This document shows, one piece after another, positions 21,801 to 60,409 of a stretch of 64,000 nt of DNA. Source of the DNA: Crossaster papposus (Eukaryota > Echinodermata > Asteroidea > Velatida > Solasteridae); NCBI GenBank assembly GCA_037893245.1, contig JBAIAA010000258.1, forward strand, positions 1,178,001-1,242,000, read 5' to 3'. The translations under genes and the position numbers were made by a program. Position 1 is the first letter of the stretch. The number at the start of each line of letters is the position of its first letter. A model generated the notes under the pieces. That model was given only the letters and a program-made list of their open reading frames with translations, was not told the origin of the DNA and did no database searches.

Positions 21801-24778
21801 AGCGCGAACAGGTTTAAGAGATACATGTACCACAAGATTCCGAAGAAAGTAATAGTGGGCGGAGGTGATTCAACATTTGCCATGAACGAACAAACTTATC
21901 TAGACAAACAGCCTTCATATAAAATGAAGTCACACCTGGATTTTTCTAGGTGTGTGATTCTATGGTTCAAGCTTGCACTGAACAATTAGTATGGCATTTC
22001 TTTGTAATATCTTGGTTTACACAGTAAAGCTTTTTTCTCTTCACCGACGCCCTTTAAAAAAAAAAATGTATGAAGTATAATTCTGCTGTAAATGTCTGCC
22101 GAGGTGTGAGGTACAGTGGGATTCAGGCGTGCGATTATTAGCACTTCTCATGAAGCTTTTAATCGAGCGATGGCATGTGATCTCACGCCTCAAATCTTAA
22201 GGTACTGTACATGTACATGTATGCAGATAAATGATGTTATCATCCTTATCCTTAAAACCCACATTGCGCAGCTACTGGTACATGTACTTGTACCGTACAT
22301 GTACAGTACATGTATGCCAAGTTTTGTGAAAATGTACAGCTGCGCAAAAATTTGTTGCACACGTCCTTCACATGGCATACCGGTAAGTTTAATGCAAGTT
22401 TTGTCAAACCTGCTGCTGCAAACCTTTTTTGTGTACCAGCAATTGACAGAATTTCAGTACAAGTACATGTACACTACATGTATGAACAAATTTACTGTTG
22501 GCAAATTCAGAAATGCCAAACACTCCAAATAGCTTATAAAAATGTCAAGCTCTGGAATTTGTTAGAGTGTGGCTTTCTGTGTTATAACTTTCTGAGGCCC
22601 CATCCCATCCCCCCCTCCCCCCAATCCTCTCAACCCCCTAATCCCCTAATCAGCTCTAATGCCTAAACAATTACAGCCAGCTGAACCATTTTGGCATGGG
22701 AGATACTAGTAACGAAATACACAATACAGTATTAAAAAAAATTGATGTTCAGCTTTTCCGACTAGGGGGGTTGTTTACTGTCGTGACTGAGATTATAAAA
22801 AGCGACACAACTAAAGAGTGTCAAATACGTTTTGAAAATTTCTCTTCAAGTTGAAAGTGCTGCAGATCTAAATCCATATGAACGTTATAGCTGATAGGGT
22901 AATTTACGCATGTTGTAAGATGGAAAAAACTATAATTCAATTTGTTAATAAATATGCAAATTAACCTCCGTGACTGACATTACCGTGACTGACATTACGC
23001 ATTAGATTCATAATGCCTGTTAACAGCAACACTGATTTGACATGAAAACAATGAATGTTCTGTCAACAATAGAAGTATCAATTAACTGTTTATGCTATAT
23101 GGCTATTTTCACAATCAGTGGTGTAACTTTGAAATTTTGAGGTTTGGGTCTGTATTTTTTTAACCAGTGGATAGAATTCTTAGATTTTTGGTCATGCAAC
23201 TATCCTGGGTAGGGGCTACCTCGGGTAGCTTAACAAAGTTTCTGTGTTTCTTCATATGGATATCCCAGACCCCAGAAGTGGGTAAATCCTACCACATTGA
23301 GTGGTCCGTTTTGTTGTACCTTTTGTTATTCAACCTATTTTTTTTGTTATGCATGCAATTTCAGGTTGCTTTTGGGTTATGATTAAGCACAAGGGATGGA
23401 TCTTTCTGCCATATAATTTTGACCTCTGATTCTGTTTCCGTTCTGTCACTAGGTCACTAAGGGTTGTCGTGTTTCGGAGGTTGTCGTGTTTCGGAGGTTA
23501 CATTTTCCGTTAACTTTTACTGTCAATATATTATGCATCACTTCTGATATTTGGAAATGACAAATATCCCACATGATTTTCAAGCTTGTTGCTGCTGATT
23601 ACATCTACTTTTGTTTGATATGTTTGTTTTTTTTGCTTAGTGGCAGCTTCGAGAGATTACATGCTTTCAAATATATTTGTTAACTTTTCCGTTAACAGTT
23701 TCGTAACCTCTGAAACATTGGATTATGTGGTCTACCTCTGAAATGAAAAAATGTGGTCATAAATTGAATAAACTAAAAAGTACTGATAAGACAACCCATC
23801 ATCCATAGAAAATATATTTGGAAAGGAATGTTGACTTTTTGGTTTATTGTGCAATGTTACATTTCCGTTAACACGGGTAACCTCCGAAACACAATGTAAC
23901 CTCCGAAACATTTCAGTTTGGTTTCATTCAGTTTACTTCTCCAAGAAAAAACTCTCGGACCTTAACATAATATGTATTAACACTGCAGTCATAAGGATTA
24001 AAATAGTTAGGTTTGTAACAACAAAATCAAGAAAGTGTGCTGTTTGAACACATGATTCTGAAAAAAACTGTTTCGGAGGTTACATGTTAACGTTTACAAC
24101 ACATAATGTAATTTGTAGGAACAGTGCACTCTTTTCTTTCAATTTTTTAGTTTTGTTGCTTTTCTACCCACTGAGAACTATTTGCAAAATGACAAAAAAA
24201 GTCTAGTTTACCTTTGATTTTGTTCTTAGGCTGCGATCTTTAGTAATTTGTGTAACATTTCCAAAACAAAACACAGATTGTAAAGGTTTTTGACGACAAT
24301 ATTTTCAAAAAATTCACTTTTTTGTAACTGCAGTTGGTCAAACCATTCCTGCTTTTAATGTTAAAACTACTTAACACTGCATTTTTTGTTCAAATTCTTC
24401 CATAGCTTAGTTTGCACACAACATAAAAAAGTCATGTTGTGGATTACAATGTTGTTTCGGAGGTTACATTAGCTGTTTACAACTCACTCAACCTGCATTT
24501 TTAATGCAGAGTGAACAAATTATACACTACTCATTGCAGTATATACAATGTAGCAGTAACTAATTGATTAGTTTGAGTCAAACATCTCTGCTGATGTTGA
24601 TGTATCACAGCCTTCAAGATCTACCATTTGGCAAAATAAAATTAAGAACACAAATCCACAGAGAAGATCTGAAATAGAAAGATAGAATAAGGGTCAAGAC
24701 GCAATACTACCGAGTGAAAAAGGACCATGGTACACATACTTTTATCATGCAGAGGAGCTTCATGAGAGCTCACTCAAC

Positions 24779-25098
24779 CTGGAAATCAGAAAATCCAACA
24801 TCAAAGCAAGCTTGGGTTTACTACTAAGTTCTATGAACTGAAACCTAAGAACGTCAAGTCGCTGTCACATTCAAGACACATAGCATGTCTGTGTGTTTAC
24901 TGTGTTAACATAAAGGAAAAGCTCTGTTGAATGGGAGAAGGTTCAATGATGAGAAGGTTCAATGATGAGACGGACTACATGGACATGCTGATGTGTGAAA
25001 AATCCCATGCTAACCGATTTCAAGAAGCCAAATGCATCCAAGGCAGCTGCTCAACATGTGGAAATCTCAAAGGCACAATCCGAGACTTCCGACTATGA
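24779..25098 (+). pseudogene. Decayed protein-coding remnant inside E1
   Basis: Two neighbouring reading-frame pieces look protein-derived. The first (24,779-24,930) includes FYELKPKNVKSL and ACLCVYCVN before a stop. The second (24,967-25,098) includes EAKCIQGSCSTCGNL. The cysteine spacing (CLCxYCxN, then CxxxxCxxCG) resembles a conserved but unnamed protein family that I associate from memory with invertebrate transposons; I cannot name it reliably. A tandem GAGAAGGTTCAATGAT duplication and stops separate the pieces. If real, it is what remains of the E1 autonomous protein. Confidence 0.4.
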
Positions 25099-26264
25099 TG
25101 ATTTTGTTGAAGCTTCATGAGCCACGGATGTAACCTGGTTGAACTTGAAATGGGAACTCTAAAAGGTTACGATGAAAACAGTTCTAGGATGTGTAAGCAA
25201 GCGGGGTACAAAGTTGGATATTTGATCAGAGCTTAATAAACAGCTCCCTGTTTCCACTTTTGCAGTTTAATTTCAGAGGGTTAATAATTTGATGAAAATA
25301 GTTCTTCGGAAGAACGATGCTAGGATGTACCGGTATATTACATGTACATGTACTTAAGCTAGCGAGGCACATGTATAGGGCACTGTTCTGAGATTGTTTG
25401 CAACAAAATATCAACTTGTTATTGTTAATTAAAACTTTATTGTTATTGTTCAATACCAGGGATATTATTACCAACTAACGTTAAATTTTGTGTTATCATG
25501 CATTACACATTTTGCACGCACATGTTCAGCAAATATGACTGTTTGGATTATAAAGACATGCCTCTGTAATTTGGGACATTTCAATGTTTCCCTAATGTCA
25601 CAGTCTAGTCCCTATTTACAATCTGAGGCAAAATGTTACCATTGCAAATTGGCTACATACATCAATCGCTCATGGTCCAATATGTAAATACACACAAATT
25701 CATGGGGGTAGGATAAGAGAAAATTGGGTTTAGGGGTTATTAAAGTTTGAAAGTTGTTGTGCACAAGTGTAAGGGTGTGTCTCCAAAAGGTATACCATTT
25801 CCCGTAATTTGATGTTTGATATTATTATGTATATTATTATTATTGTTATTATTATTATTATTGAGCCCATGAAGTTACAATAAAATGCATGTACTCTGCT
25901 AACCTTTTGATGAACAAAACACTGCAAATTGTTGTACATCCTACATGTACATATTGTAGGTGTTGGACCCTTCCAAACAAAATACAAAATAAGAAATAAC
26001 TGAATACACTGTAAAAACCTATCTCTGAAACAAAATGTGTACAGGTACGTATGAAACAGGATAGTCAAATAAGATTATGATTACAAAAACTAGCTAAAAT
26101 GTATGTTGTACAGTATGAGGGTTACCCTCACAGTTATAGCTGAATCCTCCAATTTTAATATGAGTTTGCACACACCATATCTAGAGTTAGGGTTTTTAAG
26201 TACAAATTTATCAGCAATTACTCAAGCAGAGGGAAAAATATAAATTTAAGACGATTATCTTCAA

Positions 26265-26960
26265 ATATACCAAGTGTCTCTATTACGAGGCTTATTCAGA
26301 ACTGAATAAAACTACTGTACATGTAAACAGTCCACTTCATTTGTTACATACATGCAAGTGGTTTATTAATATTGCAAACATTTGTTTGATGATGAAGTCT
26401 GATGCAAGAACACCAAAGCTGACAATACAAATGTTTTCTTGCCTCTTTGATGGATTAATAACATGTTAACTTCATGAACATACTTTGTGCTGTGTAGTGA
26501 TTCCTCAACTCTTGTCAGAGGTTTGTTAACACTAAATGTAACCTCCGAAACATATAGCAGTTGTTAACAGTAACCTCTGAAACACTGCTTTAGAAACCAG
26601 GAATATATATTTGAAACAATTTTTTTTCAAATATACTGAGTGTCTCAATTACAAGGCTTCTTCAGAACTGAATAAAACTACATGTAAACAGTCCACTTAA
26701 TTTGTTAACTCAAATAAAGTGGTTTATTAATATTGCCAACATTTGTTCGATGCTAAAGTATGATGCGAGAACACCAGGGTTAAAACAATACAAATCTTTT
26801 CTTGTCCCTTTGATGGATTAATAACTTGTTTAGCTCATGAAAATACTTTGTTCTGTGTAGTGATTCCTTAACTCTTGTCAGAAGGTATGTTAACACTTAT
26901 GTAACCTCCGAAACATATAGCAGTTGTTAACAGTAACCTCCGAAACACTGAATTAGAAAA
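26265..26960 (+). repeat. 330-bp tandem duplication inside E1
   Basis: Two copies, about 26,265-26,592 and 26,629-26,955, run in parallel from TCAAATATAC through GGTTTATTAATATTG to paired GTAACCTCCGAAACA words. Divergence is noticeable (substitutions and small indels), but the word pairs at the ends are nearly unchanged. Confidence 0.75.
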
Positions 26961-27785
26961 ATTCCAACTCTTGGACAGATCATGGGATTTTCCTGTTACC
27001 TTCACAGGTATGTAGGCCCAAGTGAACACTGTTTGTACAGGGCACAATACTTGGCCACTGTCCTAGGAAAGTGTTTTAAATTAAAAAATTGTCTGACAAA
27101 TAGTGATTTTTAACACTAAAATGGGATTAAATATTATTTCTGTAAAAAAATGAACTTCAGTTTGGGGATTTCTGGTTTTTAGTTCGGAGCTTTTACTAAT
27201 ACTTTACAATAAAACATGCCTTAACTAAGTATGCAGATATTTGGGGTAATAATAAATCTGCACCAAAAGAATGCTGTTTTTGTCAAATTTCAGGCCTCAA
27301 ATCATGTTTACCATCAATTTTGGTGACAATAATGAATAAATCAAGCTCCAAAATCATTGATTTCCTAAAATATATGTCTTAACTAAGATTTTTTTAATGG
27401 AAACGATTAAATATAATAGGTTTGAAATTTTGGACTCTTGGAAACAAAGTTACACCACTGATTGTGAAAATAGCCATATTTAAAGGAATAATTATAAGTT
27501 TGAGATGTTTAAATGTTGGATCATCCATTAAAAGTCACAAAATATGTCAAATATATAAAAACGCTCAATATATATAATTTATGTACCGGTACATCACATT
27601 TTTTGTCATTTTGAATTCAGGAGGCAGTTTTTATTGACGAAAATGTAAAGGAGGGGATGGTTACTCCCATTTTAGTAACATACCGTAGTCTTGTCAGTAC
27701 ATAACTTGTAGCTTTTCACGTGCTTCAAAGAATTGAGAGAAAAAAAAAGATATGTGACCCAGCACATCAAAATCAGCAATATGTT

Positions 27786-27976
27786 GAAAAATGACTTTTT
27801 GAGATATGTACCGGTACGTTGTAAGATTGGAAATTCTACAAGCTTTCTAATGGTACCCATCATAAGCCTGTATCTCATAGACAATAACTTCTCAGCTACA
27901 GGCTTGTGGTGAACATCATTAGGAAGCTTATGGAATTTCCAATCTTATTATGTACATATCGCAAAAAGTCATTTTC
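27786..27976. repeat. 190-bp imperfect hairpin
   Basis: The sequence around TAAGATTGGAAATTCTACAA (27,820) returns inverted around TTGGAATTTCCAATCTTATT-like bases (27,930-27,950). AATGACTTTTT at the left edge pairs with AAAAAGTCATT at the right. The loop lies near 27,880. It may be a small foldback element or a structured transcript; no flanking duplication was found. Confidence 0.5.
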
Positions 27977-29577
27977 CGACTTATTCCTGATTTTAAAGTG
28001 CGGGGTCGCGTACATGTAAAACTGATGCCTACATGAAAACATGCCTACACTTCTTTACACATACTCTGCCATCCTAGCCAGTGAGCAACATTCAACGTGG
28101 TTTAGATAAGATTCTAATTTTTGTTTTTCAATTTTCAGTACACCATGTAGATATGTCTAATTTTTTGTTTAAGTTTAGGAATCGAACTATAACAGTTTCT
28201 CAGCAACAGTCGAAGTAGATACCACATCCACACGATGTACAGCAAACTAGGCTTATCCCACCCCCACCCCCACTCGCCCCTCCACCTAACACACCACAAA
28301 TTTACAGCTTGGTGTATACTGGTAGTAGCATATCAGTAATTATAGGTTTAAATTTGTTGTGACTGACATTACATAGTCATCAAATTTATAATGCTCTCGT
28401 CCTCTATAGTTTATTCTAATCAGTCTTAATTACCAGGTTTTTTCCCTCTTTTTGTTGACCTACTTTTTCTTTGTTTCTCTACTATTCTTTGCTTGTACAT
28501 GTACATGTATGCCTCATACAATCCCCTCTCTTTCATTTGTTTCCCCTGTACTCGGCCTGTCTCTTTGCTGTTTTTGGCATTCTGCTTACACTCTTGTAAA
28601 ATGTGTGCAGTGTTTGACCTTTGTAATAATTATGCCAATATTTAAAAAAATAAAAAATATTGTCTAACATTTCTTCAATCAATGTACTTTAATCAAATGA
28701 AAAATATTCATGTTAAACATGTTAAATAGTGTGCCTGAAATGGGGTACATTTCATTAACAAATCCATGTCATTCACTTTATATCTGTACCTGTAGATTGG
28801 ATGATACACAGTAGTAGATTAAAAATACAAACTATGAGGGATCCTAGAGCATTATTTCAGTATTACACAAGCTTTACTAAGTTTCATTGTGGGTAATATA
28901 CAAGTTATCATCAGTCCACCCACTGTTTAAAATTTCGTCCATTAACTTAAATGTAATAACGTGACTGACATGACAATAGCGTGACTGACATTACATTGTG
29001 ACTGACATTACACTTTTGCTCAACTCACCAAATCTACAAATAACAAGTATTTTCCCTTTTGATAGTATTATTGCACTGCCCAGACCCCATGCTAAGAAAA
29101 TAATGAAGGGCACACTTTAATTGTTATCCAGTATGTTTTTATGGGAAAAATTATTGTTTTTTATGGCTGACATTACATTAAGCCCAAAGCGTTATTTTGA
29201 CGGCACATCCTGGGTATCTAACAGTAACATTAATTTCATATAAATAAAAGTTGTTTTTCTAAAAAGGGATACTAAGAGTTGTTATTTTAACACAAAAATG
29301 AATTTAATATCATTAGACTAATGCAAATTATACCAAAAGAAATAAGTTTTGTGTTTTACCTACAATTGGTAGCATAAAAATAGTATCAACTTCAGAGTGC
29401 TGTAACTTACAACATAATTGGTTTAGAACTATTTTTTTTTCATTTCTAGAAACTTCAGAATATACCCTGTTAATTTTGCAAAAGATATTTAGGAAAAAGG
29501 CATTTCAAAAAATTGACCCTCGTGTCGCACTTGCGTGGAATTGCCCACCCCCATCTCCTCGAGCCCGCCATCTCCTC

Positions 29578-29745
29578 GACCCCCCCCCCCCCCCCCCATC
29601 CCCTCGACCCCCCCCATCCCCTCGACCCCCCCCCATTCCCTCGACCCCCCCACCCCCTCGACCCCCCATCCCCCCCTCCCCATCCCCTCGACTCCCCCAT
29701 CCCCATCCCCATCCCCATCCCCCATCCCCCATCCCCCATCCCTTC
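29578..29745. repeat. C-rich minisatellite with G-quadruplex potential on the minus strand
   Basis: Variants of CCCCATCCCCTCGA are repeated, ending in CCCCATC units. The complementary strand has many runs of four or more guanines. Because several frames stay open, long Pro- or Gly-rich translations appear on both strands; they are not genes. Confidence 0.8.
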
Positions 29746-29936
29746 AAAAAAAAATGCACGTGGACCGGTACTACTGCGATATGGAGTAAAAAAGAAATAT
29801 ACATGCCGGTACTGTACATGTATATGTGCAAAGTGCTCTGATGAATGCTAGCAAACGCAAACCGTGTTTTCGAAAACAAACTTAAAACGTGCCAGGGCTG
29901 ACTTTGCCAAATACGGTATACCGGTAGGGACAACAT

Positions 29937-32387: not shown

Positions 32388-35300
32388 ATATGGCTCATTC
32401 TATAAATTTGGGGTCCAAGGTGTGACATGGGGGTTCAAATTTTAAATTGCTTTAATTGACAGTTTAAATGCATTTTTACCTAGTCCCAAGTATCAATATT
32501 TATGATTTAATTATCATTAGTGAACAGCTTTATGTATGAAAATTTGTCAGCCGTTTGAATTAAAGGGCAGCCTAAATATTACCAAGGTAACAGGGACGGG
32601 AAAATTTGCAATGCCCACCCATGTAAAAGGATGAAGCTTGACTATTTTAAGATGCCTTTTTCAACCATTAGGCAGAGTTTCATATGGGAATTAATAAATA
32701 TAATATGTGGAAAGGGTATAAAAAAGCAAAAATGTCTGTTAAGGCATACCTAATTATGCGACGGGTAAAAAAAAGAAGAAGGGTTTGTTAACTTTTGTAT
32801 TAAATTTTGTTTTGTTTACAAACCCTCTCATATACGAGTTAAATTATCTTGAAATGTTACTGTTGGTTATTTAGTTTGCTTTAAATATTTACTCATTTTA
32901 AATTGAAAGCATTTAAGTAGTTTCCTTGGATTCTAAAGAAAAATATATGTCAGAGGTAACTGGGACGGGAAACACTATAAATTGGAACAATATTTACAAA
33001 ACACAATAGCTCGTTTCCCTTTTCAGCAAAGCTGAAAATCCATTGTTATCCAGGTCTCTTTATTTATATCAGGCCATCCTTGCATGTCAGAGGTAAGTGA
33101 AAATGGGGTGGTTTTCAAGAAACAAATGTCTCCTAAAGACATTTATAGTCTCCTATAATTACACCGTACTTGAATTTTTTCCCAATTTCTAAGCACATCT
33201 TTAACACACTTATGCAACAAAGTTGGACAAAATGTCAATAATAAAGTATCTAGTTACACAAGGGCCATTTGCTCATCAAACCGTGTTCCCGCTTGACATG
33301 CTGTTTAATTCTGAGTGTGGTGTGTTAGTTGTACAATGTTGTAAGGTGCTAATTAAGCGCTTTGCTGTGCCTCACTCAAAATATGCCCTCAAGCAGTTCT
33401 TGTTAAGCAAAGGAGGCTTGGTTGGCAAAAAGCCACAGTTGTAAGAGAACGTATTCATCTACTTTGTTTTCTTCAACAAGTTCAACTTGGTAAACATTGT
33501 TTAAATGAACCAACACTTTAAATTCAACCTTTGTGTGTCACTCGGCTGAGAAAAGCTTCGCTTTTCTGTGGAATAATTAACTGTGTTTTGTTTTGTTTTG
33601 TTTATTGGGAAGGGGTGTATAATCATTTTAATATTACATTTAATTCACTGCAACAATACTGGTTCTTGATTACTCTTTAAAGTTTTGTTCAGAAAATTCA
33701 TAATTTTTTTTGGTTTTTAAACAGCATAGTTGGAGGTGAAAAGACTTCAACTACATGTACATCATCCAGGGGATGGATGTGTTCACTTCCTTCTGTCCAG
33801 TAATATCTTCACGTTTGTTTATGAACTTCAGACCAACTGTACTGTGCTGCAGCTTGCAAGTTGGTCACCTGCAATTTAGTAAACAAAAAAGAATATATTT
33901 AGTAGGCTGTGTGTTCTGTCATATTAAACCTTTTAAAATTAATTTTTTTTTTTTTTTTTTTTGGGTGGGGGGGGGGGGGGGGTGGGGTGGGTTCCGGCGG
34001 GGGGGGGGGGGGGGGGGGGGGGGGGAGGGTTTCGGGTTGGGGTGGGGTCTCGCCATTGACTGAACAACTTTACAAACCCAAATAATTATTCTAACTCAAG
34101 TTATAATTATAATATAATTTCTAACTCAATTATTCTAACCCCGCACTACTCTGTGCTGTAGGCCATACCATGATCAGTCCAAAAAAAGTCAGATTTTCCC
34201 CCTTTTTTTCATGGAAATCATTTAATCTTAAACTCGGCATGGTTTCCATGGTTTCGTCTGTTGTAATTTGTCTCTAAATCTGCGATCTAAAGTAAATTTA
34301 AAACAATTCGCGATAAACGTAACAAAAATATGGCGAAACCAATTTGCGCAGGCGCGGCGTGCACAGCTCTGCAGTATTGTTCAGCATTAACTGTTGTGCG
34401 CGCTAGTAGAGCGCCCTCTGTTGTTCGGTGCAACAAGCTGTGCACGCCTGCGCAGACTTGTTCCGCCATTTTTTTTTCGCGTTTGTCGCGATATATATTT
34501 TGTTTACCGTATTAATTATTCGCAAACTTGCTTTAAAAAGTGATATTATTGGCCCAGGCTTTTACTTTTAGAAACAACTATCGATGATACAAGTATTTTA
34601 AGAAAGCTCCAACGGTGATTCCGAGCCGAGGTGTGATTTAAAACAATGGCGACAAAATTGCTTATGGTGGCCGGCGTATGAAAAATCACGGCGTATCGGG
34701 GACAAGAGAAAATTACTGTCCCGGGTTACGCTGACCTGAATGTACCCGTATTATTCAGAAACTTACATTATAAAGTAACATTATGGGTGTAGGTTTTTAG
34801 GTTTAAAAACATTGCATGTATCTAAAGAAAGAAACAACTGTGATTTCAACGTGTGATTGGAAACAAAGCCAACAAAATCACGAACCTGGCCGGCGTATCG
34901 GGGACAACAAAAGTATTCATGTCCCAATCGATTTGATTACGTCGTTACAGAGATGATGTTTTTTATAGAATTAATCATAATTATATAAGGTGTGACAAAC
35001 AAAATATTCATAAATCGAACAAAACAAAGCTGTAGACTAGTCATGACCTAATACAATCGTACATGATATGTTAAAACTTACCTGAAAAAGGCTCCGAATG
35101 ACCGAGGTAACACGGGACGGGAAATCCTTTAACGTCCACCGAAGACTTCCATCCTGATCTAGTTAAGTTTCACTAACTTCAACTTTCTCAGTGTCACCAC
35201 AAATTTCCCTTCCACCGATATTCGAAATTTCAGTAACAAATGTGACAGTTATGCACTCGGTTTTTGTTAAATGAATCAAATACTAGCTGCCAGCGTAACG

Positions 35301-36118
35301 AAATCGACCGACGAAACGGACAACAAATTTGGGACGGTCAAACTTTGCCAGCCAGTCACACACGATAGAAAATAGCGCAAGAGGCACTTCGTTGGCGACA
35401 AGAAAGTGCACGTGTATGCACATCAGGGTAACTCTATCCTTTTCACATACGTTTGGGTTTTCCAAGTTTTATGAACAATTCAACATGCTCGACGTAACAC
35501 GCTCCCGAGGACAGGAATTGATCGCGCTTTCAATTCTCCACGCACATCTTTGCATGAAAGTGAAAAAATTATCACGCAAGTTATTTATCTTGTTCAGAAA
35601 ACTCGAGCCAAGATATGTTGATGGTTCTTACGTGGAAAAAAACAAGCTGTTCTGGGTAGAGCTGCACTGAATTGTGCACAACCAGCGTAACGCGTGGGAC
35701 AGAAAAATTTACGCCGGTACTGCCGAATTCAACAGGCCTGTGCTTGAAATGCATTGTTTGTGAAATGTCAATACTTTCATGGATTATTAAGTCAATCATG
35801 GTGATGATTATGAGTGGGTTTTAATTGGTTCAATTTATTTGTCTATTATAAGAAAACATGTATTAGTGGGTCGGTGTCCTCATGTCACACTTTGGGGGTT
35901 GAAACTACCATGGGACAGGCAGACATTTTGTATCGCAGAAAAAATGTTAACCACAATTAGGATCAAACTAATACAGTTTGAACATCATATGACATTGGGG
36001 CATATTATGCAAGAAAACTTTCAGAGTTGACAATTTTCTATATAATTAATAATGGCACTTAAAGATGAACAATGTGTTAAAAGCTCACTGGACCCAAAAT
36101 TTGTATACACAGCCATAT
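32388..36118 (+). mobile_element. TIR element E2 (about 3.73 kb) with GTAAC..GGGACGGGAAA words
   Basis: Ends are ATATGGCTCATTCTATAAAT and an imperfect inverse ending ATACACAGCCATAT; about 24 of the outer 31 positions agree. Inside, words of the form GTAACTGGGACGGGAAA recur at about 32,588, 32,953, 34,729 (inverse), 35,107 and 35,687, with weaker ones at 33,090 and 35,490. A paired GGCCGGCGTATCGGGGACAA motif occurs near 34,670-34,700 and 34,893. Open frames (for example 33,223-33,444, 73 codons) show no recognised domain. The tip ATATGGCT is shared with E1, but the words differ. Confidence 0.7.
33943..34035. repeat. Poly-T / poly-G low-complexity tract inside E2
   Basis: A run of about 20 thymines is directly followed by GGGTGGGGGGG and a run of about 24 guanines near 34,002-34,026. 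It has strong G-quadruplex potential on the plus strand. Base-calling or copy-number errors are likely here. Confidence 0.8.
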
Positions 36119-36406: not shown

Positions 36407-36569
36407 TTAACCGAACAGGAAAAATGTAACCGTGTAACCTTTTGAACGGTCGGTTAACCGTGTAACCGTGTAAGGCTTACTTTGAAACAAGCACAAATTC
36501 GTGTGGGAGCCGTGTCATTGTGTATTGGTCTACTGGTAGTTCAAATGCAAAACAATAGCACAGAAACTG

Positions 36570-42269: not shown

Positions 42270-42500
42270 GGGTGCGTTTAGACACCGTTTTAAATTCGCT
42301 TAAAAAACTAGTCAACACGATTTGGTAAAAAGTTTTTGCTAAAACGATGTCTGAACGATTATAGTTTTAATAACAGAATCGATTTTATCTCGCCCCTAAA
42401 ACGGTGATTGAAAACACCGCAGGAGGAATGTTTAGATAAAACTGACCGCTTTATCTTCTTAACAGGGTGTCTGAACGGTTTTAGCTAAAACAGTTGACCT
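42270..42500. mobile_element. Word-iterating remnant (TGTCTGAACGGTTTTAG words)
   Basis: The left edge reads GGGTGCGTTTAGACACCGTT. GTGTCTGAACGGTTTTAGC, or variants in either orientation, recurs at about 42,283, 42,345, 42,400 and 42,468. The structure is like the other word-based elements, but the right end and any target duplication are unclear. Confidence 0.5.
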
Positions 42501-44341: not shown

Positions 44342-45790
44342 CCTAACTACCCCAAGCCCATCAAACTCCAACTGCAGATTTTGTTAGGTTTTGGCAAGTT
44401 TGGTACCAAACATTTTAGCAAATTGTTGTTGGACTTTGTTTGGCTCAGTACAAAAAGGCCAAGAGAGACTCTGTTGAATGCTGTAAAAAAGGGCAGAAAG
44501 GCACGAAACTTGTACAAATGTTGGAACTTGGGGGAATGCACCTGGCGTTTATTCGTGGGTGAGCTCACCCATGGTCACGGCACAGTTCCTGGTCAACTGC
44601 AAGTGTACACCCAATGTGTCATCACTCAAATACAGACTTAGCATGTTATCAGTTGTGGGGTAGGGTACCTTCTTTTGTTCTTTGTCCCCTTAGAAATCTC
44701 AAAATACATAGCGTTAGCCTGTGGGGTACTTTGATTTCTAAAGACAAGACTTGCGGGGTACAATTGTCCCTGTTGTTGCCCTTTGTTACCAGTAAGTGCC
44801 ACTTCGTAAAGGCACTAAACAATGCATAGACCCATCTGTTCCAAGTCGAACAAACTTCAACAAATTGGAGTTTGGCAGGTGTAAGTACTGTTAAGCCGTG
44901 TTCGCACTGGACTTTTTTTTGGGAAGGTTTTACTGAGACGATGGTAAAATAAAAAATGGTCAAATGTTACCACTGTTCGCACTTGGACTTTCGACACGGG
45001 AAAATTTTACCGAGACCGTGGGAGAAGTAGCCGAGCTGTCATTATAATGACTCGTGAGGGAGCTTTGCGTGACCTTTCTGCATTGACCCCGGTGTACCCA
45101 TTCGCGCGCGCGGGTTTTTTTTTTTGATCGCATCATTGACGCCATGCCATCATAGGTACGGTATTGCATCCGTTGTCGTGCTTTCTTTCGTCGTAAGACA
45201 CGTTGACGTTCTTTATTATCATTTGGAAATGATGCACTGGTAGCACCAATCAAACTTCCGACTGTATCAATAATAATATCTGCCATAATATTGACCAAAG
45301 GAACCCCAACTCTACGTAATCTTTTTGCAGAACCACGTGCGAATGTGATCACGATGCGATTTGCATGCATCAGCAGCGTGCCCGCACGTAAACAATGCAA
45401 AGAGCGCATGCGCGGTGTTTTGTGTAGCATGACCTTGCACTGGAGGGCCAGGTGAACGATTTCCTGGGCCGCTTTTACCGACACGCGCTGTTCGCACTGG
45501 ACTATCGTCTAGGGAAAAGTGACCAGGGAAGTTTTCGCGGGCAGCAGTTGGCCGGTAGAAGTACCCACTGGACTCGGGAGAAGTACCCGAGAGAAAAACG
45601 TCCTAGGCTGTCCGCACTGGACTTAAAATGGGAAAGTACCCATCGTCTAGGTATGTTTTATCATAATAAGTCCAGTGCGAACAGGGCTTTAGGGCAATAA
45701 TTACAGAACCTGTGTGCAGTTGTTGAAGTTTGTTAGGTTCGGTATGCGGTATGCTTTCTAGTGCAAGAGCCTAGGGGTTAGGGTTAAGAC
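44342..45790. repeat. Dispersed repeat R1, copy 2, interrupted by E5
   Basis: 44,342-44,893 matches 14,637-14,970 (for example CAAATTGTTGTTGGACTTTG), and 45,689-45,790 supplies the end, with AGTGCAAGAGCCTAGGGGTT. The 795-bp element at 44,894-45,688 splits the copy. Confidence 0.65.
44891..45691. mobile_element. Harbinger-type element E5 (795 bp), TTA duplication, TGTTCGCACTGGACTT words
   Basis: The element is 44,894-45,688, flanked by TTA on both sides. Ends are AGCCGTGTTCGCACTGGACT and the inverse AGTCCAGTGCGAACAGGGCT. The word TGTTCGCACTGGACTT recurs at about 44,898, 44,974, 45,490 and 45,611 and inversely at 45,669. A minus-strand open frame (45,484-44,960, 174 codons) contains an Arg/Lys-rich stretch (RQRVLRRKKARQRMQYRTYD). 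I do not recognise it; it could be a transposase remnant or chance. Confidence 0.8.
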
Positions 45791-48689: not shown

Positions 48690-48836
48690 CTGGACATATT
48701 TTGGGTCGTCGGGGTTGAATGTGGAACTGTATTTTTCGAAGCCTTGGTAGGAAACGTGCGGCCAATTGTGGAAGAACTCGGTCAGCCAAAATGGGACGAA
48801 TTCGTCGGCGTATTTGAAGTTCACCAAGTACCACAT
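48690..48836 (-). CDS. ttyh: Tweety homolog, exon 1 with start codon
   Basis: ATG is at 48,836-48,834, preceded in frame by a TAA nine bases upstream, which fixes the start. The donor is GTCCAG/GTAATT at 48,690. It encodes 49 residues ending in phase 0, with WLTEFFHNWPHVSY and STFNPDDPKYVQ. Tweety homologs begin with a similar short extracellular segment: a tryptophan-leucine helix with a P-H turn, then an F-x-P-x-x-x-x-Y motif before membrane helix 1. No signal peptide precedes it, as in the family. Together exons 1-4 give 229 residues, less than half of the roughly 450-540 residues usual for the family, so the C-terminal part is missing from what I can read. Paralogue identity is not assigned. 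Confidence 0.88.
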
Positions 48837-48949
48837 GGTTGCTTATTGGAGGAAGAACAAGTAAAAATGTCACTTATGATCCATGGATCCTTTTTTGTTG
48901 TTGAAGAATTATGAGGTGAAATTTGAGGAAAACAAAAACAAAACTTCGA

Positions 48950-50340
48950 AGACTGTATAATGTGTCAGTGTGAAACGCCGAGCAAGCAAGCTCTGATTAA
49001 GGTTCCTGATTTATTCTTTTCCATACAGTGTATGCAAAGCCCACTTGCACTATGCGCTGCACGGTACGCGTAGCTAGCGATCAATGGTACACTCAAATTC
49101 ACACGTTAGAAAATATAATAAAGTTAAGTCACCAGTGAAGTCTGGTACTTAGTATTCTTCACCTATCTAATATACTTATTATAACAATGGTGATCAGACG
49201 AATTCGCACACAACGGTGGCCCACAACTGACACGGAAAAAGCAAAAAAGTCACGGCAAAAGTAAAAAGGTCGGGGCAAAAGAAAAACCACCGCGGCAAAA
49301 GTAAAAGCGCTGTGGCAACTTTTGGTATGGAACGCCAAAGAGACATTTAAATGTGATCTTCAAATCAGTGATGCGCTTGAGTCACGATTGGCTATGGACT
49401 TAAATTTGGCCATCGGTGATTGACTTTCACTATCGGTGATCGATGAACCGATCGGTGACGGACTTTTACGATCGCTGAATAATACATGTAGTTTAGAAAC
49501 TTCCTTTCGGTTTTATTAGCCACTATAGCACTGTTTATTATTTGCGCTTGTCATCGACCAACTCGTGAGAAATAACTAGTCCAAAAGCTACACTTTTAAG
49601 ATTATACTTTGTGTGGACATTTAGCTCGTCGTTTTCAATTTCAATAAATGAATGTTAACCACTTTCCATTTTATAATTCAAAGTTTGCTTATTTGTATTT
49701 ATACATCACTATTCACCAAGTCACTCTCACTCTAGCTCACACCAATAAACTCCACACTTAACTTACCCATCATGTGTAACAAGGGGGAACAGGCTCTCGA
49801 GTTTTGATTCCTTCAGTGGCTTTCAGTTGGTGGGTTTAAATACATGTACATGTACCACCAAAAAGGAAGTCAAAGACTTATATAATTTGGTTTACACATT
49901 TACAAAGTATTCAAAATAATATAACATAGAATATAATAGTATAACAGTTACATAATAGCATAAAAATGTAATGAGATAGTGGTAGATGGTATGGAGGTGT
50001 TTACTTTATGGTTGGTTCCTAGCCCTGAAGGCTAATAAGGTAAAGATATTATTACAATGTCTCTGATGCACATAAATAAAGATAAAAGAAAATAGATTAG
50101 TTAGTGTGGTGTATCCAGTTGGATATTTTACTTATGTGAATGATGAAGATGAACACTTGAAAATACAATTGGGCGGACTGGGACACAAATTTGGTCCAGG
50201 ACGTTCAGCTCGCACTGGCCCTCACACTGGCCCACGCTTTTAAATATCGTAGTGTACACCCGACCCGAATGTCGTTTGGGAGATAAATCGCCGGCCCAGT
50301 GTACACAGACCGACCCATGCTCAGCCGTGGACCGCATCGC
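48950..50340. other. Upstream of the tweety gene: no gene, short word clusters
   Basis: This should include the promoter of the tweety gene, but I see no decisive TATA or initiator element. 49,226-49,320 repeats CGGCAAAAGTAAAA with variants. 49,400-49,475 repeats ATCGGTGATTGACTTT-like words. 49,850-50,110 is AT-rich and featureless. Confidence 0.4.
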
Positions 50341-52131: not shown

Positions 52132-52559
52132 CCCAGCAAACACAAAACGTTTAAAAAACGTTTTTTAAACGTTTAAGTAGGTCCGCTAGGTCTTCGTCCT
52201 AAATAAACGTTTAAAAAACGTTATTTAAACGTTTAATTAGGCCCGCTAGGTCTTCGTCCTAAATAAACGTTTAAAAAACGTTTTTTAAACGTCCGCTACG
52301 TCTTGATTTTTAACAAACGTTTAAAAAACGTTTGGAGAACATCTAATTTTGACCTAATATTTGCCCCAAAGCAAAGGTTTTTTTAAAACGTTTACAAAAC
52401 GTTTACGAAACGTTTGAAAAAGACGATTTTTTTCTGGACGTTTAAAAAACGTTTTCTTTACGTCCAAGTCAAATAAAAACTAATTGTAATTAATTATTGT
52501 TTTTTAATATTATGATTTAATATGATTATTATTTTGATGATTAAATTGAGTAGCCTAAT

Positions 52560-52640
52560 GATGGTGATTATGATGATGATTATGATTATGATGATCGATG
52601 ATGATTATGATTATGATCATGATCATGATCGTCATCCTCA
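52560..52640. repeat. GATTATGAT microsatellite
   Basis: ATGATGATTATGATTATGAT-type repeats run for about 80 bp inside E7. The His/Asn- and Ile/Met-rich open frames across this tract are artefacts. Confidence 0.8.
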
Positions 52641-52718
52641 TCGTGTGGCCCGTATGGTCGTCGTCGACGTCGTTGATGTACGTAATTGTTATATTTTGTG
52701 ACATCGATATCATGCGGT

Positions 52719-53413
52719 GCGCCGGTGTGAAAGGTAATTCTGTCCCCCCTGGTAAATGTGTCCCCCCGGACAGACTTACCAGGCCGTGACCCGGTAAATC
52801 TGTCCGGGGGGACACATTTACCTAGGTATTTCTGTCCCCCTCCAGGTAATTCTGTCTCCCTGCCCAACGTTAAACGTGTCCCCCTGGTAAAATTGTCCCG
52901 TGCAACGTCACAAGTCTAGCACCCACTAGACGCAACAACCAGTGTAGTACAGGTTCACACCTTCATGGTGCATCATTTGTGGCAGACTGTAGGATGTGTA
53001 GTGTACTACAAATTACAGGTGGTCAAAAGTGCTGCCACATTCGTGCTGGGTATACAGAATTTGTACGCGTGCAAGAAGTCTGAAAATACTGATTACCGCT
53101 AATTTCCCTTTCGCGCAGAAACGTAGATCGGTTGATTTAATTAACACAGTTATTTATATTTTTATTTTTATTTTGATAAATCGATGAAGGGAACAGAAGT
53201 CCAAATAATAAATACCATGTGGGCTTTTCATTGAAATAACATCAAAATAACCACTTATGTGTGGAACATTGGGGGACAAAATTACCTAGAGAGGGGACAG
53301 AATAAACTGGAGGGGGACGGAATTAACGGCTCTAGGGGGACACTTTTACCTAGGTAATTCTGTCCCCCCGGACAATTTTACCGGGGGACAGAATTACCTT
53401 CCACACCGGCGCG
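52719..53413. mobile_element. TIR element E4 (about 690 bp) with GGTAATTCTGTCCCCC words
   Basis: Ends are GCGCCGGTGTGAAAGGTAAT and the inverse ATTACCTTCCACACCGGCGC. The word GGTAATTCTGTCCCCC (or GGTAAAT.TGTCCCC) occurs about 14 times in both orientations, crowded at 52,732-52,900 and 53,268-53,400, with a 370-bp plain core between. In several places two words face each other and form perfect hairpins (for example around 52,795 and 53,345). No open frame is credible. The target duplication is ambiguous. Confidence 0.8.
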
Positions 53414-53661
53414 GCCTGGCTGGCCGCCTACGTACAGCGTGCATGCCATCGTTTATATTCAAACGCTATGTTGGATGTTCTTGAAAGGTTTTCTGAACGT
53501 TCTGAATAGGTTTTCTGAACGTTCTTAAAAGGTTTTCTAGACGTTCTTAAAAGGTTTTCTGAACGTTCTTAAAAGGTTTTTTGAACGTTTTTAAAAGGTT
53601 TTCTAGACGTTCTTAAAAGGTTTTTTAAACGTCTAAAGGTTTTCTAGACGTCCTAAAAAGG

Positions 53662-54294
53662 CACTGCAAAAACTGTGGTGTTAAAATTTTAACACCAATG
53701 TTTTTTTAATCTTTTGGAATGAACATTGGTGTTAAAATGAAGTAAAATGATTATTGAAGTATTAGTTTCAAATCAAGTACTGGTGTTACGTACTTTTGGT
53801 GTTAAATTTGACCTAGTGCGCATGCGTGTGTGAAATAAAGCCCTCTGATTGGTCGATAAGGAATTATGGTATATGTTAACAATAGTCGATGTTAAATTGT
53901 TGTATTTAGTCCAAAAACCCATTTATTTTACCATAATATGTAATTATTTAAACGATTCCATGATTGAATTTTGATTTTTGTGCAAACATAGTTAAAAATT
54001 CGCGTTACATTTTATTCGTTTTCAAATTTTGACATTATTCATAAAAACTAGCTGCGACTTCGTCGTGGACAAAAAAGCGTAGTATAAAACTAACAACGGC
54101 AATGGCTATGTGTGTAGTACGTATTCAGTAGGAATAGATTATTATTGTATATGGATGTGTAATGTGTAATAAGTCAGTTCTTTGTAATATTTCATTACGT
54201 AATTTGACCATGCAGTTAATATGTACAAAATTATAGTGTTAAAACGGTATGATCCTCAAACTGGTGTTATTCAACACCCAATTTGTTTGCAGTG
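53662..54294. mobile_element. TIR element E8 (633 bp) with GGTGTTAAAA words
   Basis: Ends are CACTGCAAAAACTGTGGTGT and an imperfect inverse ending CCAATTTGTTTGCAGTG. GGTGTTAAAATTTTAACACC near the left end is a perfect 20-bp palindrome, and GTGTTAAAA/GTGTTA words recur at 53,729, 53,782, 53,800, 54,236 and 54,263. A TA follows the right end, but the left flank does not match it. The outer CACTGCAAAAACTGTG tip is shared with E9. Confidence 0.75.
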
Positions 54295-54594
54295 TAGACG
54301 TTCTTAAAGGGTTTTCTAAACGTTCTTAAAAGGTTTTCTAAACGTTCTTAAAAGGTTTTCTAAACGTCTAAATGTTTTCTGGAGAGCTGGTCTGGAAAAC
54401 GAAAACGAGACAAGGTTTTAAATTGGTTTTTTAAACGTTTTAAATTGGTTTTTTAAACGTTCAATAAAAACGTTTTTTAAACGTCCAAAACCTACCACAA
54501 AAAAACGTTTACAAAACGTTTTTTTTGAACGTTTAAAAAACCAATTTAAAACGTTAAAAAAACGTTCAGAAAACGTCCGATTGTTAGCTGGGAT

Positions 54595-55345: not shown

Positions 55346-56994
55346 GTGCCGACTCTAACCTTTCGGGAGACTTCACCAATGACGAGATGGTTTCGGCTAT
55401 CAAACATCTGAAGCCAAACAAAGCAGCCGGAATCGACAACATCCACCCAGAGTTTATCCTACACCAGGGCAGCAAAGCATGGCTAAGATCTTTCTGCTCT
55501 GCCTGCTACCGCTCCTCCAAGCTCCCGAAGATTTGGCGCCGTGCAAAGGTCATCGCCCTCCTGAAGCCGAACAAGCAGAAGGACGACCCAAAGGGCTACC
55601 GGCCCATCGCTCTCCTGTGCGTCTCATACAAGATCCTGGAACGTCTCCTACATGCACGCCTCGACCCGGTGATCGACCCATCACTGCCGAAGGAGCAAGC
55701 CGGCTTCCGCCGCGGGAAGTCCACAGCAGACCAAGTGACCCTCCTCACTCAGGACATCGAGGACTCCTTCCAGAAAGGCGAGAAGGTGGGCGTCGTCCTC
55801 CTCGATCTAACGGCGGCGTACGATACAGTCTGGCTCCGTGGACTCCACCTTAAGCTCCTGCAGACGATCCCGGACCGACACATGGTGGGCTTCATCATGG
55901 AGATGCTGAGCAACCGTAGCTTCACCCTCCACACCAGCGACGGCCAACACAGCAGGCTGAGAAGACTTAAGAACGGTGTCCCCCAAGGTTCGGTACTAGC
56001 CCCGATGTTGTTTAACATCTACATCCACGATCTCCCAGACACTTTGTCAAGCAAGTATGGATACGCAGACGACCTCGCAATCCTGTCTGCCGACAAGTGC
56101 TGGGAGACAATCGAATCGGGGCTCACGGCCGACATGACTACCCTGTCTTCGTACCTGCTGAACTGGCGTCTGAAGCTCTCCGTGGCCAAAACCATGTCCT
56201 CTGCATTCCATCTCAACAACAGAGAGGCAAGCCGCGAGCTCAACATCATCGTCAACAACACCAGACTCCAGTTCCAGGCCACTCCGACATACCTAGGGGT
56301 CAAGCTCGATCGCTCCTTGACGTACCGCCAACACCTGGAAAATGTGTCAGCAAAGACATCAGCCCGCGTTGCCCTCTTACGACGGCTAGCTGGCACCACG
56401 TGGGGTGCATCGACCAAGACACTGCGCATCTCCACCCAAGCGCTGGTCTTCCCCGCCGCGGAGTACTGCGCCCCTTTCTGGTGTAGGAGCATCCACACCA
56501 AGAAGCTGGACTCTACACTCAACAGTGCCCTGCGCACGGTCTCCGGCTGTCTGCGTGCCACACCGGTCAACCAACTACCTATCCTCGCAGGCATCGCCCC
56601 ACCATCCCTACGTCGAGAAGCCGCCGTCCTGGCACTGTCGCGTAAGGCCACCAATGACGCCGACCATCTTCTTCACAAAACCGTTACAGAGACTCCACAC
56701 CGCATCCGCCTAAAGTCACGACGTCCTTTTAAGGAGCATGCCCACCAGCTCCTGTGCTCCGCTCCACCCGACGCTTCCAAAAGGCTGTGGCTCAAACGCC
56801 GGCGCTGGACAGAATTAAGAGTGGCAAGCAGCAGACCATTCCAGGCTACACCGTTTCGTGGAGGAGCCAGGCAAGCTGCTCGGCGAAGACCTGCCGCGCA
56901 AACAATGGACGATGCTGAACCGCCTCAGAACCGGCGTAGGCCGCTTCGCCGCGACTATGAAAGGCTGGGGGCTCAGGGCCTCCGCCGTATGTGA
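55346..56994 (+). pseudogene. Retrotransposon reverse transcriptase
   Basis: The open frame from the in-frame ATG at 55,387 has 535 codons. Motifs, counted from that ATG: LKPNKAAGIDNI (8-19), GYRPIALL (70-77), VVLLDLTAAYDTVW (136-149, motif A with Asp140), NGVPQGSVLAP (196-206, motif B), YADDLA (226-231, motif C with both catalytic aspartates), and TYLGVKLD downstream (thumb side). All catalytic residues are intact. From about residue 478 the frame turns into a low-complexity Arg-rich tail because of a frameshift; the true continuation is in the frame starting near 56,850. Residues before the ATG (SNLSGDFTNDE) belong to the same domain. Confidence 0.93.
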
Positions 56995-58650: not shown

Positions 58651-58651
58651 A

Positions 58652-59221
58652 TTAAAGGTATACTGCAAAAACTGTGTTTAGCGAGTAAACACTTTTCTAA
58701 ACACTTTCTTGCTATCAGTTTGTAAACATGTTTACATGCTAAACATGTTTAGCATGAGGACGGATTGTGTTTAGCCATTGAACGTGGATGTTTAGGAATT
58801 AGATGCGTGCGTTTAGCTTCTAAACATGTTTACAAAGTGATAGCAAGAAAAGTGTTTCCTCGCTAAACACAGTTTTTAGAGTGTAGGATACACCATTGGT
58901 AATTGCTTGAATTATCATGAATGGGTGGATTTGGGTTGTATTTTATAGTAAATATCGCTTAACTTATACCTGTTCGAAGTTTTACAATCAATGATGCGAG
59001 AAAAAACGGCATTTGTTTTTCTTTCTTTTTTCGCGACGGCCGCCTGGCAATCGTAAATTTGTTTTTATATTAAATTGTTTGGAACAAATACAGGATATCT
59101 AGAGCAATTCTTTTGCTGGATGCCTACAAATCGTTATTTACTTCAAATAAGTAAGATATTTCCTAATAATTCAGTAGTAATTTTTTCCTCGATATCTGCA
59201 AATGGTGTATCCTACCTTTAA
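58652..59221 (+). mobile_element. M1-family MITE interrupted by E9
   Basis: TTAAAGGTA (58,652-58,660) and TAGGATACACCATTGG (from 58,884) are the two sides of one M1 terminus, separated by the 223-bp element E9. The right end is GGTGTATCCTACCTTTAA at 59,221. The interior has lost part of the usual GCGTTTGTTTTCAACCG region. It is adjacent to the right end of IS630-like copy A. Confidence 0.85.
58659..58885. mobile_element. Mariner-type MITE E9 (223 bp) with TA duplication and TGTTTAGC words
   Basis: The element is 58,661-58,883, flanked by TA on both sides; removing it restores the M1 terminus exactly. Ends are TACTGCAAAAACTGTGTTTA and the inverse CTAAACACAGTTTTTAGAGT. GTGTTTAGC, AAACATGTTTA and their complements recur about nine times, and GTTTACATGCTAAACATGTT near 58,740 is part of a nested palindrome. 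There is no coding capacity. Confidence 0.88.
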
Positions 59222-59970
59222 GTAAAGACACTAGAAAGTTAAAGGACGTTGCTGCAATTGCAAATATAATTGACTTTTTTCACCGGTTACATAATGAGTT
59301 TCCTAACAACTTTCTTTCACAGTTTTTTTCCCTTGTTCTTCACATAAACTAAAGACACTCACGGGTATTTCACCACAGCAAACACATTTTTTATTTGCGA
59401 TACAACCGAACCTCGTATTCAAATTAACCACACGAGAAAATTACAAATTTAGGTTTTCCCGGACGATATCGCAAAATGTGCACATTCATTTGTAACTGGT
59501 GCATTCGTTTTCGTGCGAAATAGTATGAACGTTCACATTCCCATTTTTTATTTAACAATTGATAATTCTTGTTTGCAAAATGGTGCATCCAGTCGTAAGA
59601 AATCAGCGCACGATTTCCCGAATGTGCACTTAATTTAGTATATTCATAATTTATTTTCGCGCGAATTTGAATGCACACCTGCAATCATGTTTTCCTTTTA
59701 ATTTATCAACAATCAATTTCGCTAAATGTGCAGTCGATTTTCTACGCATTTGTATGCCTGGTCAAGCATTGTAATTCATATATGTGTTATCAAAAGTAAC
59801 ATATGGGGAATTAAACCATGCAGGTGGTCTCGTCTTTTGAAACATACCAAATAAATTCTTGTTTGCAAAATGGTGCATCCAGTCGTAATAAATCAGCGCA
59901 CGATTTCCCGAATGTGCACTTAATTTAGTATATTTATAATTAATTTTCGCGCGAATTTGAATGCACACCT

Positions 59971-60409
59971 GGGGTGCGTTCCACTTACGCGAACTGTTTG
60001 CGCGAACGTTCGCCAACGTTTTGAGTTGGCGTTAGTTGAAGTGGAACGATATTTTAAAAACTACGTTTTCAAAATGGCGGCGCCCAGTGAAAGTGACATC
60101 GTTTGGTTCGCTGCTTTTTGTCCAACTCATTATTTTTCTTTAAAAGATCACTGTGAATGCTCAAAACAATCCACCGTTTATAACGAAAAGTATAAAACGT
60201 AAATAAAAACCATGAAAAGAACCCTGCCGTCTGTTAACCGCTTCGCCATCATTAAAATACGTCACTGGCCAACAGCGAACAGCTCGGAATGTCGTTCGCC
60301 GTTTTCGCTAACGTTGGCCAACATAATTGGCGCACATTGCGTTCCAGTCACGCGAACAACGCTAACGTTGGCCAACGTTGGCAACGTTCGCTGGAGTGGA
60401 ACGCACCCC
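59971..60409. mobile_element. TIR element E10 (439 bp) inside IS630-like copy B
   Basis: Ends are GGGGTGCGTTCCACTTACGC and the inverse CGCTGGAGTGGAACGCACCCC without its first base. Words around GCGAACGTTCGCCAACGTT recur (59,986-60,020; 60,345-60,392). The interruption is clear because ATGCACACCT/GCAATCATG is continuous at 59,670-59,690. Short open frames inside have no domain; the duplication length cannot be settled from the C-rich border. Confidence 0.75.

Follow-up and report, generated by a model that had tools for sequence, protein, structure and literature searches.

Private repeated words of DNA transposons in the echinoderm Crossaster papposus are probable recognition sites of lineage-specific transposases

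Introduction

Short motifs which are repeated near the ends of an element and are bound by a transposition protein have been described in several transposon groups. In CACTA (En/Spm) elements, subterminal repeats are bound by TNPA-like proteins, and the available part of the published account describes motifs which differ between families of one genome alongside the DNA-binding protein and have a small part in common (PMC2613891). Among hAT elements, the accessible portions of the respective papers give the site AAACGG for Ac (PMC3260210) and the site CGATTCAT for Herves (PMC3143072), and in the Foldback-like element Galileo several sites bound by the transposase domain lie within internally repetitive long ends, according to the available text of PMC3688188. 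Sola2 is characterized, in the accessible part of its description, by a transposase of 888 amino acids (aa), short terminal inverted repeats (TIRs) and 4-bp AT-rich target duplications (ATAT, AAAT, ATTT; PMC3627910). Coral miniature inverted-repeat transposable elements (MITEs) with a conserved interior represent a different arrangement, as far as the available text describes them (PMC2872659).

Here, we analysed a stretch of 64,000 nucleotides of the Crossaster papposus genome (hereafter the window; positions 1,178,001 to 1,242,000 of contig JBAIAA010000258.1, here C258, of the 1.02-Gb assembly GCA_037893245.1), in which several elements, designated by E numbers, carry short repeated words. 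Other C numbers denote contigs of the same assembly and also name the loci on them. The words of E1, E2 and E3, and perhaps that of E4, are probably subterminal recognition sites of the transposase of their own lineage, as judged from sequence comparison. The new part is the bipartite plan shared by most of the words and the number of lineages residing together in one genome; a literature search for the word strings and for the concept, from whose coverage the subscription literature was largely missing, returned CACTA, hAT and Galileo as precedents and none for the words of this family.

Like the CACTA elements, so far as the accessible account goes, the elements described here have conserved repeats at their termini and, subterminally, numerous copies of a short motif specific to the family. 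The original prediction, in which these elements were taken for a class built from one private word each, had assumed that elements with the same ends do not usually differ in their words, a premise which the CACTA families of PMC2613891 contradict in the part available. For the CACTA element, that account gives CACTA termini, duplication of 3 bases and a binding protein which is separate, whereas here duplications are of 4 bp, one long open reading frame (ORF) is present and most words share GTAA followed by a short free spacer. Membership in CACTA (En/Spm) was therefore rejected, the ends being GGCT/GGGT with a 4-bp duplication. The likeness to hAT lies in several short, member-specific subterminal sites which are bound by the transposase and which non-autonomous elements may keep; Ac/Ds differs, in the available descriptions, by its 8-bp target duplications and by sites confined to the terminal 200 bp. 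Galileo differs in belonging, according to the accessible text, to the P-element superfamily with a THAP domain, which Pfam did not find in the four proteins scanned here. The Foldback TU elements of sea urchins and FB elements were likewise considered.

Elements of the window and their words

The four elements that concern the main argument are located as follows.

E1: 23101..27475, plus strand, a 4.4-kb transposon without an intact gene, inserted in E3; ends GGCTATTTTCACAATCAGTGG
E1 left word cluster: 23470..24467, word GTAACCTCYGAAACA at 23470 (minus), 23487 (minus), 23703 (plus), 23877 (plus), 23896 (plus), 24069 (minus) and 24453 (minus)
Decayed transposase piece in E1: 24840..25110, plus strand, FYELKPKNVKSLSHSRHIACLCVYCVNIKEKL, then a CxxxxCxxCG-like stretch
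E1 right word cluster: 26538..26947, plus strand, words at 26538, 26570, 26901 and 26933, in two duplicated units of 363 bp
E2: 32392..36114, ends GGCTCATTCTATAAATTTGGGGTCC / GGCTGTGTATACAAATTTTGGGTCC, target duplication ATAT
E2 words, GTAAC-N(1-4)-GGGACRG: 32587 (plus), 32956 (plus), 34729 (minus), 35107 (plus) and 35687 (plus)
E3: 22648..29546, split by E1; the window copy is truncated on the left, and its right end reads GGGCAATTCCAC on the reverse strand
E3 words, GTAATGTCAGTCAC: 22783, 22970, 22985, 28359, 28961, 28981, 28998 and 29163, all on the minus strand
E4: 52721..53410, a 690-bp MITE with ends GCCGGTGTG; word GGTAAnnnTGTCCCCC at 16 sites in both orientations

Enrichment was assessed with the best 12-mer, allowing at most two mismatches on both strands, against dinucleotide shuffles (6 per segment in one set, 8 or 20 in the other). 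The words of E1 (14 sites against shuffle maxima of 8 and 9 in two shuffle sets), E3 (9 against 7) and E4 (13 against 3) are clearly enriched. Three control stretches of the window are not, with 6 sites (maximum 6) in 4001-8000, 7 (maximum 8) in 16001-20000 and 6 (maximum 6) in 46901-50000. The predicted repetition of words thus holds for most elements but not for E2 as a plain word, since none of the plain-word scans showed enrichment there (12-mers, 7 sites against 7 in shuffles). The bipartite form GTAAC-N(1-4)-GGGAC, which was picked after reading E2, has five sites in the window, every one of them in E2, and at most two in any of 200 shuffles of E2; moreover, each of the three occurrences of GGGACGGG in E2 has GTAA two or three bases ahead of GGGAC.

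Different elements do use different words, in that those of E1, E2 and E3 scored zero elsewhere in a cross-table of 16 segments and the word of E5 (see below) had a single match in one other segment, but the short E4 pattern, with two mismatches, is loose and matched in 10 other segments, up to eight times (in C381). The description of these elements as made largely of one word fits E4, where the word covers 36.2%, and not E1 (3.8%), E3 (4.5%) or E5 (7.8%). As a class, too, they fall apart: E1, E2 and E3, perhaps with E4, form a group, but the remainder are several MITEs with internal repeats which could not be tied to the transposase family of E1-E3, and the class is for this reason a mixture.

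A C-rich minisatellite (29540-29750) adjoins the right end of E3. A G-rich run lies within E2 (33940-34035), and G- and C-runs are also present in the stretch taken from C165.

Copies of E1, E3 and E4 in the genome

The E1 word GTAACCTCCGAAACA has 218 exact matches in the genome, whereas its reversed control has none. The places of 100 matches were listed, and 17 stretches around the listed clusters were taken for copies. The copies are colinear over 4.4 kb, and in the seven compared with the E1 of the window the aligned pieces are 91-97% identical, except for a few shorter pieces at 88-92% and an internal duplicate. In the window E1 is flanked by ATAT on both sides (23097-23100 / 27476-27479), and identical 4-bp flanks (ATAT, ATAC, GTAT, ATGT, TTAT) are present in 9 of the 12 copies having both ends, the copies on C375, C395 and C429 being those whose flanks do not match. 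Three of the nine (C226, C334 and C356) have both flanks in common, apart from minor differences, and appear to be a single insertion which has been duplicated. Membership of E1 in hAT was rejected on the same flanks, as those shown for the window copy do not extend to 8 bp. Long E1 copies of up to 30 kb were considered as autonomous forms and ruled out, because in them the 4.4-kb sequence is interrupted by other DNA.

Word bases of E1 vary less between copies than their flanks do (13 of 1770 against 227 of 13771, Fisher P 0.002), and this holds after removal of the segmental duplicates C334, C356 and C67 (10 of 1320 against 185 of 10275, P 0.004). For E3, a first look gave 125 candidate copies, of which 40 were scored (84-91% identity); the copy on C79 aligned badly, and was therefore uninformative, on its left side. 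E4 is a high-copy element of ~98% identity with 1472 first-look candidates, 40 of them scored, and the top copies are 97-100% identical. One E4 copy (C505) carries GG to TA changes at both ends, symmetrically.

Within E4 the variation is concentrated in the spacer of the word. In a plain 12-mer search with at most three mismatches (15 sites), the three spacer columns contain 16 mismatches and the other nine columns 5. A larger figure of 65.7 against 19.0 differences per column is biased, because its sites were chosen by a pattern with a free spacer.

Inheritance of words by position

The original prediction held that gene conversion or replication slippage copies the word within each element, and it had said that words inherited unchanged at each position, or words serving as binding sites of one transposase family, would speak against this. 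We compared 13 E1 copies having both word clusters over 10 slots, giving 128 usable cells; C245 (left part outside the stretch), two cells of C423 (deletion) and slot 1 (present in the window copy alone) were omitted. The same slot differs between copies by 0.172 of 15 bases. For different slots the difference is 0.467 within one copy and 0.469 between copies; when copies were shuffled within slots, extra likeness within a copy had P 0.08. Slot 9 reads CTCTGAAACA in 12 of 12 copies, and slots 2, 7, 10 and 11 are unchanged in 13 of 13; an alignment gap in slot 10 of C17 conceals a word which is in fact whole. The E4 comparison (seven copies, 16 slots) is similar, with 0.113 differences in the same slot against 3.80 of 16 bases for different slots within a copy and 3.80 between copies, and 11 of the 16 slots are identical in all seven copies. 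The words are therefore inherited by position, and since the slots within a copy nevertheless differ, homogenisation within these elements is unsupported. What is seen is thus largely what the prediction had named as speaking against it, with the site being specific to the lineage.

Copying of words inside elements does occur, but as local duplication which adds words and with no sign of homogenising them. The E1 word at 23470 was made by a 17-bp tandem duplication seen in the window copy and in none of 12 others, and the two 363-bp units of E1, with two words each, agree at 29 of 30 word bases and 281 of 325 other bases. Likewise, C301 has a 213-bp word-bearing unit repeated 10 times, C96 has four units of ~190 bp with inverted word pairs, and two copies of E10, that of the window and another, differ by a word-sized indel.

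The transposase family

The decayed coding piece places E1 within a large transposase family. As a query, this piece had 38 matches in the genome, many of which are copies of E1 itself, and the other relatives, 50-60% identical, are found within open frames that range from 351 to 1472 aa. A survey of the genome with a 141-aa catalytic stretch matched 85 stretches at 26-100% identity, and 25 of these 85 fall in frames which run for 800 aa or more without a stop. We took C125 and C301 (one family), C96 and C553, then C463 and C381. The encoded proteins have in common, in identical or close form, the motifs CLCEYC...CxxxxCxxCG, DFGEN/DFAEN, SDDLTHD, SDGCSSQYKSK and HGKGPSDGESGVVK, from which they are predicted to be DDE-type transposases. 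C165 was added once GTAA had become apparent as a shared part of the words. An 811-aa frame is present in seven copies (C53, C165, C352, C599, C841, C919 and C1246) with equal or near-equal match scores, a sign of recent movement. A long repetitive KGT/AEVAGTSHVA tail, of different length in the two copies, brings the frame of C301 to 1472 aa and that of C125 to 1337 aa.

Elements with TIRs could be delimited around two of the genes: the C96 element has the TIR GGGTCATTCCATTTATTTGGGGGCC and flanks AAAT, and the C463 element the TIR GGGTAGTTCCATTTATTAGGGGGCC and flanks ATTT. The ends of E2 are similar to those of both elements and also to GGGCAATTCYAC of E3. Short TIRs in E1, E2, C96 and C463, together with the 4-bp AT-rich duplications of E1 (in 9 of 12 copies), E2 (ATAT), C96 (AAAT) and C463 (ATTT), are features of Sola2. 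Open frames here of 889, 896 and 842 aa agree in length with its transposase, and the flanks seen read ATAT, AAAT, ATTT, ATAC, ATGT and TTAT. The family thus fits Sola2, compared by the available part of its published description alone, and we do not file it as Sola2. Three words (G/A)TAACTGGAACACTTT to the left of the C463 element, beyond its end, perhaps belong to a different element with its own word.

Words of the transposase lineages and their shared plan

Five words were obtained from the six lineages examined, as C96 and C463 have the same one. The words are given with the number of sites found and, after it, the number in 200 shuffles.

C96: GTAAnnnGGACACCAA, 9 against 0
C463: the same word, 3 against 0
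C381: GTAAnnnTGACACCAA, 4 against 0
C301: GTAACATTTGACTCCA, 10 (one tandem array) against 0
C165: GTAACnnGGACRGAC, 3 sites, seen by eye in 3.7 kb downstream of the 811-aa frame, against 0
C553: CGAACGTCA, 6 against 1

Most words, including that of E4 when written for this comparison (GTAAnnnTGTCCCC), consist of GTAA, a free spacer of two to six bases, most often three, and a lineage-specific half, the second halves being GGACACCAA, TGACACCAA, GGACRGAC, TTGACTCCA, GGGACRG, CYGAAACA and CAGTCAC. When the private half is taken as anchor, it is preceded at a distance of three bases by GTAA in all 9 sites of C96, 3 of 4 of C381 and 3 of 3 of C165; in C463 this is so in 2 of 5, the distance in the others being 2, 4 and 6 bases. 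On the right side of C96, a loose pattern gave mostly chance-like matches.

Genome-wide, the words follow the transposase lineages. The C96 word GTGTAANNNGGACACCAA has 519 matches against 1 for its control, with 18 different spacers among the first 100 matches listed, which cover contigs C1-C186. On these contigs, and among the matches listed, it lies within 8 kb of five of the six transposase loci at least 66% identical to C96 and of none of the 15 loci below 60% identity. The C165 word TTGTAACNNGGACRGAC has 18 matches against 5 for the reversed control, and all but one of them (C603) lie ~3.3-3.5 kb past the catalytic stretch of the seven copies of the 811-aa ORF; of the outer slots of this family, one has the spacer AT in all seven copies and the other AA in six of them (GA in C841), and three of the seven have an exact match in the middle slot. 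The C381-type word TGTAANNNTGACACCAA has 66 matches against 13 for the control. Its 16 pairs of sites 330-375 bp apart have the spacers CAG and CGC in 13 cases and CAG and CCG in three, and in C25 the spacer CGG occurs three times; C500 and C630 are apparent segmental duplicates among these loci.

The likeness of words parallels that of proteins, among the few (five) proteins which were aligned. In the C-terminal part, C96 is 62% identical to C463, with the same word, 47% identical to C381, with a word one base different, and 31% identical to C553, with an unrelated word.

Origin and possible function of the words

E1-E3 probably belong to one large cut-and-paste family with GG(C/G)(T/C)-type ends, 4-bp AT-rich duplications and a DDE-like transposase encoded in open frames of ~810-1470 aa. 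The transposase would bind several sites near each end and so bring the ends together, non-autonomous copies would retain the sites while losing the gene, and extra sites would be born by local duplication and then be inherited slot by slot. We infer that the word is recognised directly by the transposase and owes its conservation to this binding; contact with a protein is suggested by fixed halves which enclose a free spacer. More tentatively, and with slightly less than even confidence, we suggest that the words may form a modular address code, in which a constant GTAA half-site is followed by a short free spacer, usually of three bases, and a lineage-specific second half. Lineages residing together would thereby be insulated from each other's elements, the second half changing stepwise with the protein and the words spreading by local duplication.

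Concerted evolution, in which gene conversion or slippage would homogenise the words so that a lineage fixes its word without any binding partner, appears improbable. Words do arise by local duplication, as the 17-bp duplication of E1, the C301 array, the C96 units and the E10 indel demonstrate. Moreover, the spacers of GTGTAANNNGGACACCAA (first 100 listed) agree in 43 of 90 pairs within clusters as compared to 520 of 4860 between them, where the clusters represent different families, and the one spacer found three times in C25 points in the same direction. However, different slots are no more alike within than between copies in E1 (the P of 0.08 given above) or E4, the two spacers are unlike in all 16 pairs of C381-type sites, the outer slots of the C165 family keep their own spacers and the variation in E4 is concentrated in the spacer, so that for the sampled E1 and E4 such homogenisation is contradicted. 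There is a similarly slim chance that the words are sites of a host protein, such as a zinc-finger repressor or a transcription factor, acquired by each lineage separately. The E1 words are numerous and far from the ends, a host protein could select for or against words, and a host factor could itself track the lineage; yet the words follow the transposase lineage, and C96 and C463 have related proteins with the same word.

Several observations weigh against recognition by the transposase of the own lineage as the explanation of the words, or against the evidence for it. E1 words reach ~1.4 kb from the element end, the E1 copies are not independent, some loci being segmental duplicates, and in slot 4 of C429 the word is broken by a 4-base insertion which was ignored in the counts. 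The full-length E3 copy on C61 has no 4-bp target duplication around it, and its words are not clearly better kept than the background (93 of 98 against 91.7%). E4 has no target duplication in seven copies, despite symmetrical ends, and its possible tie to the E1-E3 group is drawn from word shape alone. As to the proteins, they are read as DDE-type from conserved motifs, and a Pfam scan of four of them gave no meaningful match and no THAP domain. No convincing TIRs were found by an inverted-repeat search of the stretches fetched for C381, C301 and C553, and the link between word and element is there drawn from nearness for that reason. The word of C553 lacks GTAA, and two right-end sites of C96 read GGGACACGAA, outside the GTAA-n3 form. 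The search for the C463 and C381 words was guided by the C96 pattern, and the C165 word was spotted by eye; in a plain word scan the C463 word is not prominent and the C381 word ranks sixth. Finally, the ORF of C75 is 99% identical to the catalytic stretch of C96 with no listed word within 8 kb.

Private subterminal motifs were already known, as few isolated examples in the literature compared. In this genome, many related transposase lineages with open frames are present together with words in graded steps (GGACACCAA, TGACACCAA, GGACRGAC), which makes the change of transposase-site specificity directly testable by binding assays. The series provides natural material for studying how transposases change the DNA they recognise, and lineage words offer a rule by which orphan non-coding elements can be matched to their transposases.

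Other elements and repeats of the window

The remaining word-bearing elements are as follows.

42.3-kb cluster: 42270..42495, starts GGGTGCGTTTAGACACCG; words around CTAAAACGGT
E5: 44895..45687, TIR GCC(G/C)TGTTCGCACTGGACTT next to TTAA/TTTA; word TGTTCGCACTGGACTT
E8: 53662..54294, MITE with ends CACTGCAAAAACTGTG / CACTGCAAACAAATTG, the left end like that of E9; word GGTGTT(AAAA)
E9: 58661..58883, 223-bp MITE with ends TACTGCAAAAACTGTGTTTAGC / CACTCTAAAAACTGTGTTTAGC and a TA target
E10: 59971..60409, high-copy MITE with ends GGGGTGCGTTCCACT; words around GCGAACGTTCGCC / GCCAACGTTGGC

The E5 word is clearly enriched (6 sites against shuffle maxima of 4 and 3 in two shuffle sets, 12-mer), and those of E9 and E10 modestly so. 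For E10 the 12-mer count is 4 against 3. E8, E9 and the 42.3-kb cluster were scanned with 8-, 10- and 12-mers: E9 exceeds its shuffles at all three lengths (5 against 2, 5 against 3 and 4 against 3), while the outcome varies with word length for E8, which exceeds them for 8-mers (6 against 3) and 10-mers (6 against 4) but not 12-mers (4 against 5), and for the 42.3-kb cluster, which does so for 10-mers (5 against 2) and 12-mers (4 against 2) but not 8-mers (2 against 2).

TTAA target duplication is a feature of piggyBac and Kolobok; E5, examined for this feature in its window copy, is flanked by TTAA on the left and TTTA on the right. TA target duplication is a feature of Tc1/mariner-like elements and is present in E9, as judged from the MITE sequence alone. 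E9 sits in another repeat, unfilled forms of which are found at ~59210 and ~41678, and the repeat hosting E10 has an unfilled form at ~59680. E10 gave 1724 first-look candidates in the genome, and the 40 scored are 97-100% identical. Near E10, at 60680-61800, is a DDE_3 transposase remnant (Pfam E 1.5e-8). At 52136-54590, units AACGTTTAAAAAACGTTT / ACGTTCTTAAAAGGTTTTCT lie in a repeat ending CCCAGC(A/T)AACA, which E4 and E8 interrupt.

An Rfam search of the window at gathering thresholds gave no match. A 12-bp unit, GCTCACTAGCAA, is repeated in 97.7 copies at 36569-37740, 99% alike, with the minus strand open over 404 codons. A minus-strand peptide near 45.9 kb, read by eye, matches the Pfam family Tweety (E 9.6e-9), and the reverse transcriptase ORF of a long interspersed nuclear element (LINE)-like element (RVT_1, 535 aa, E 6e-34) occupies 55387-56994.

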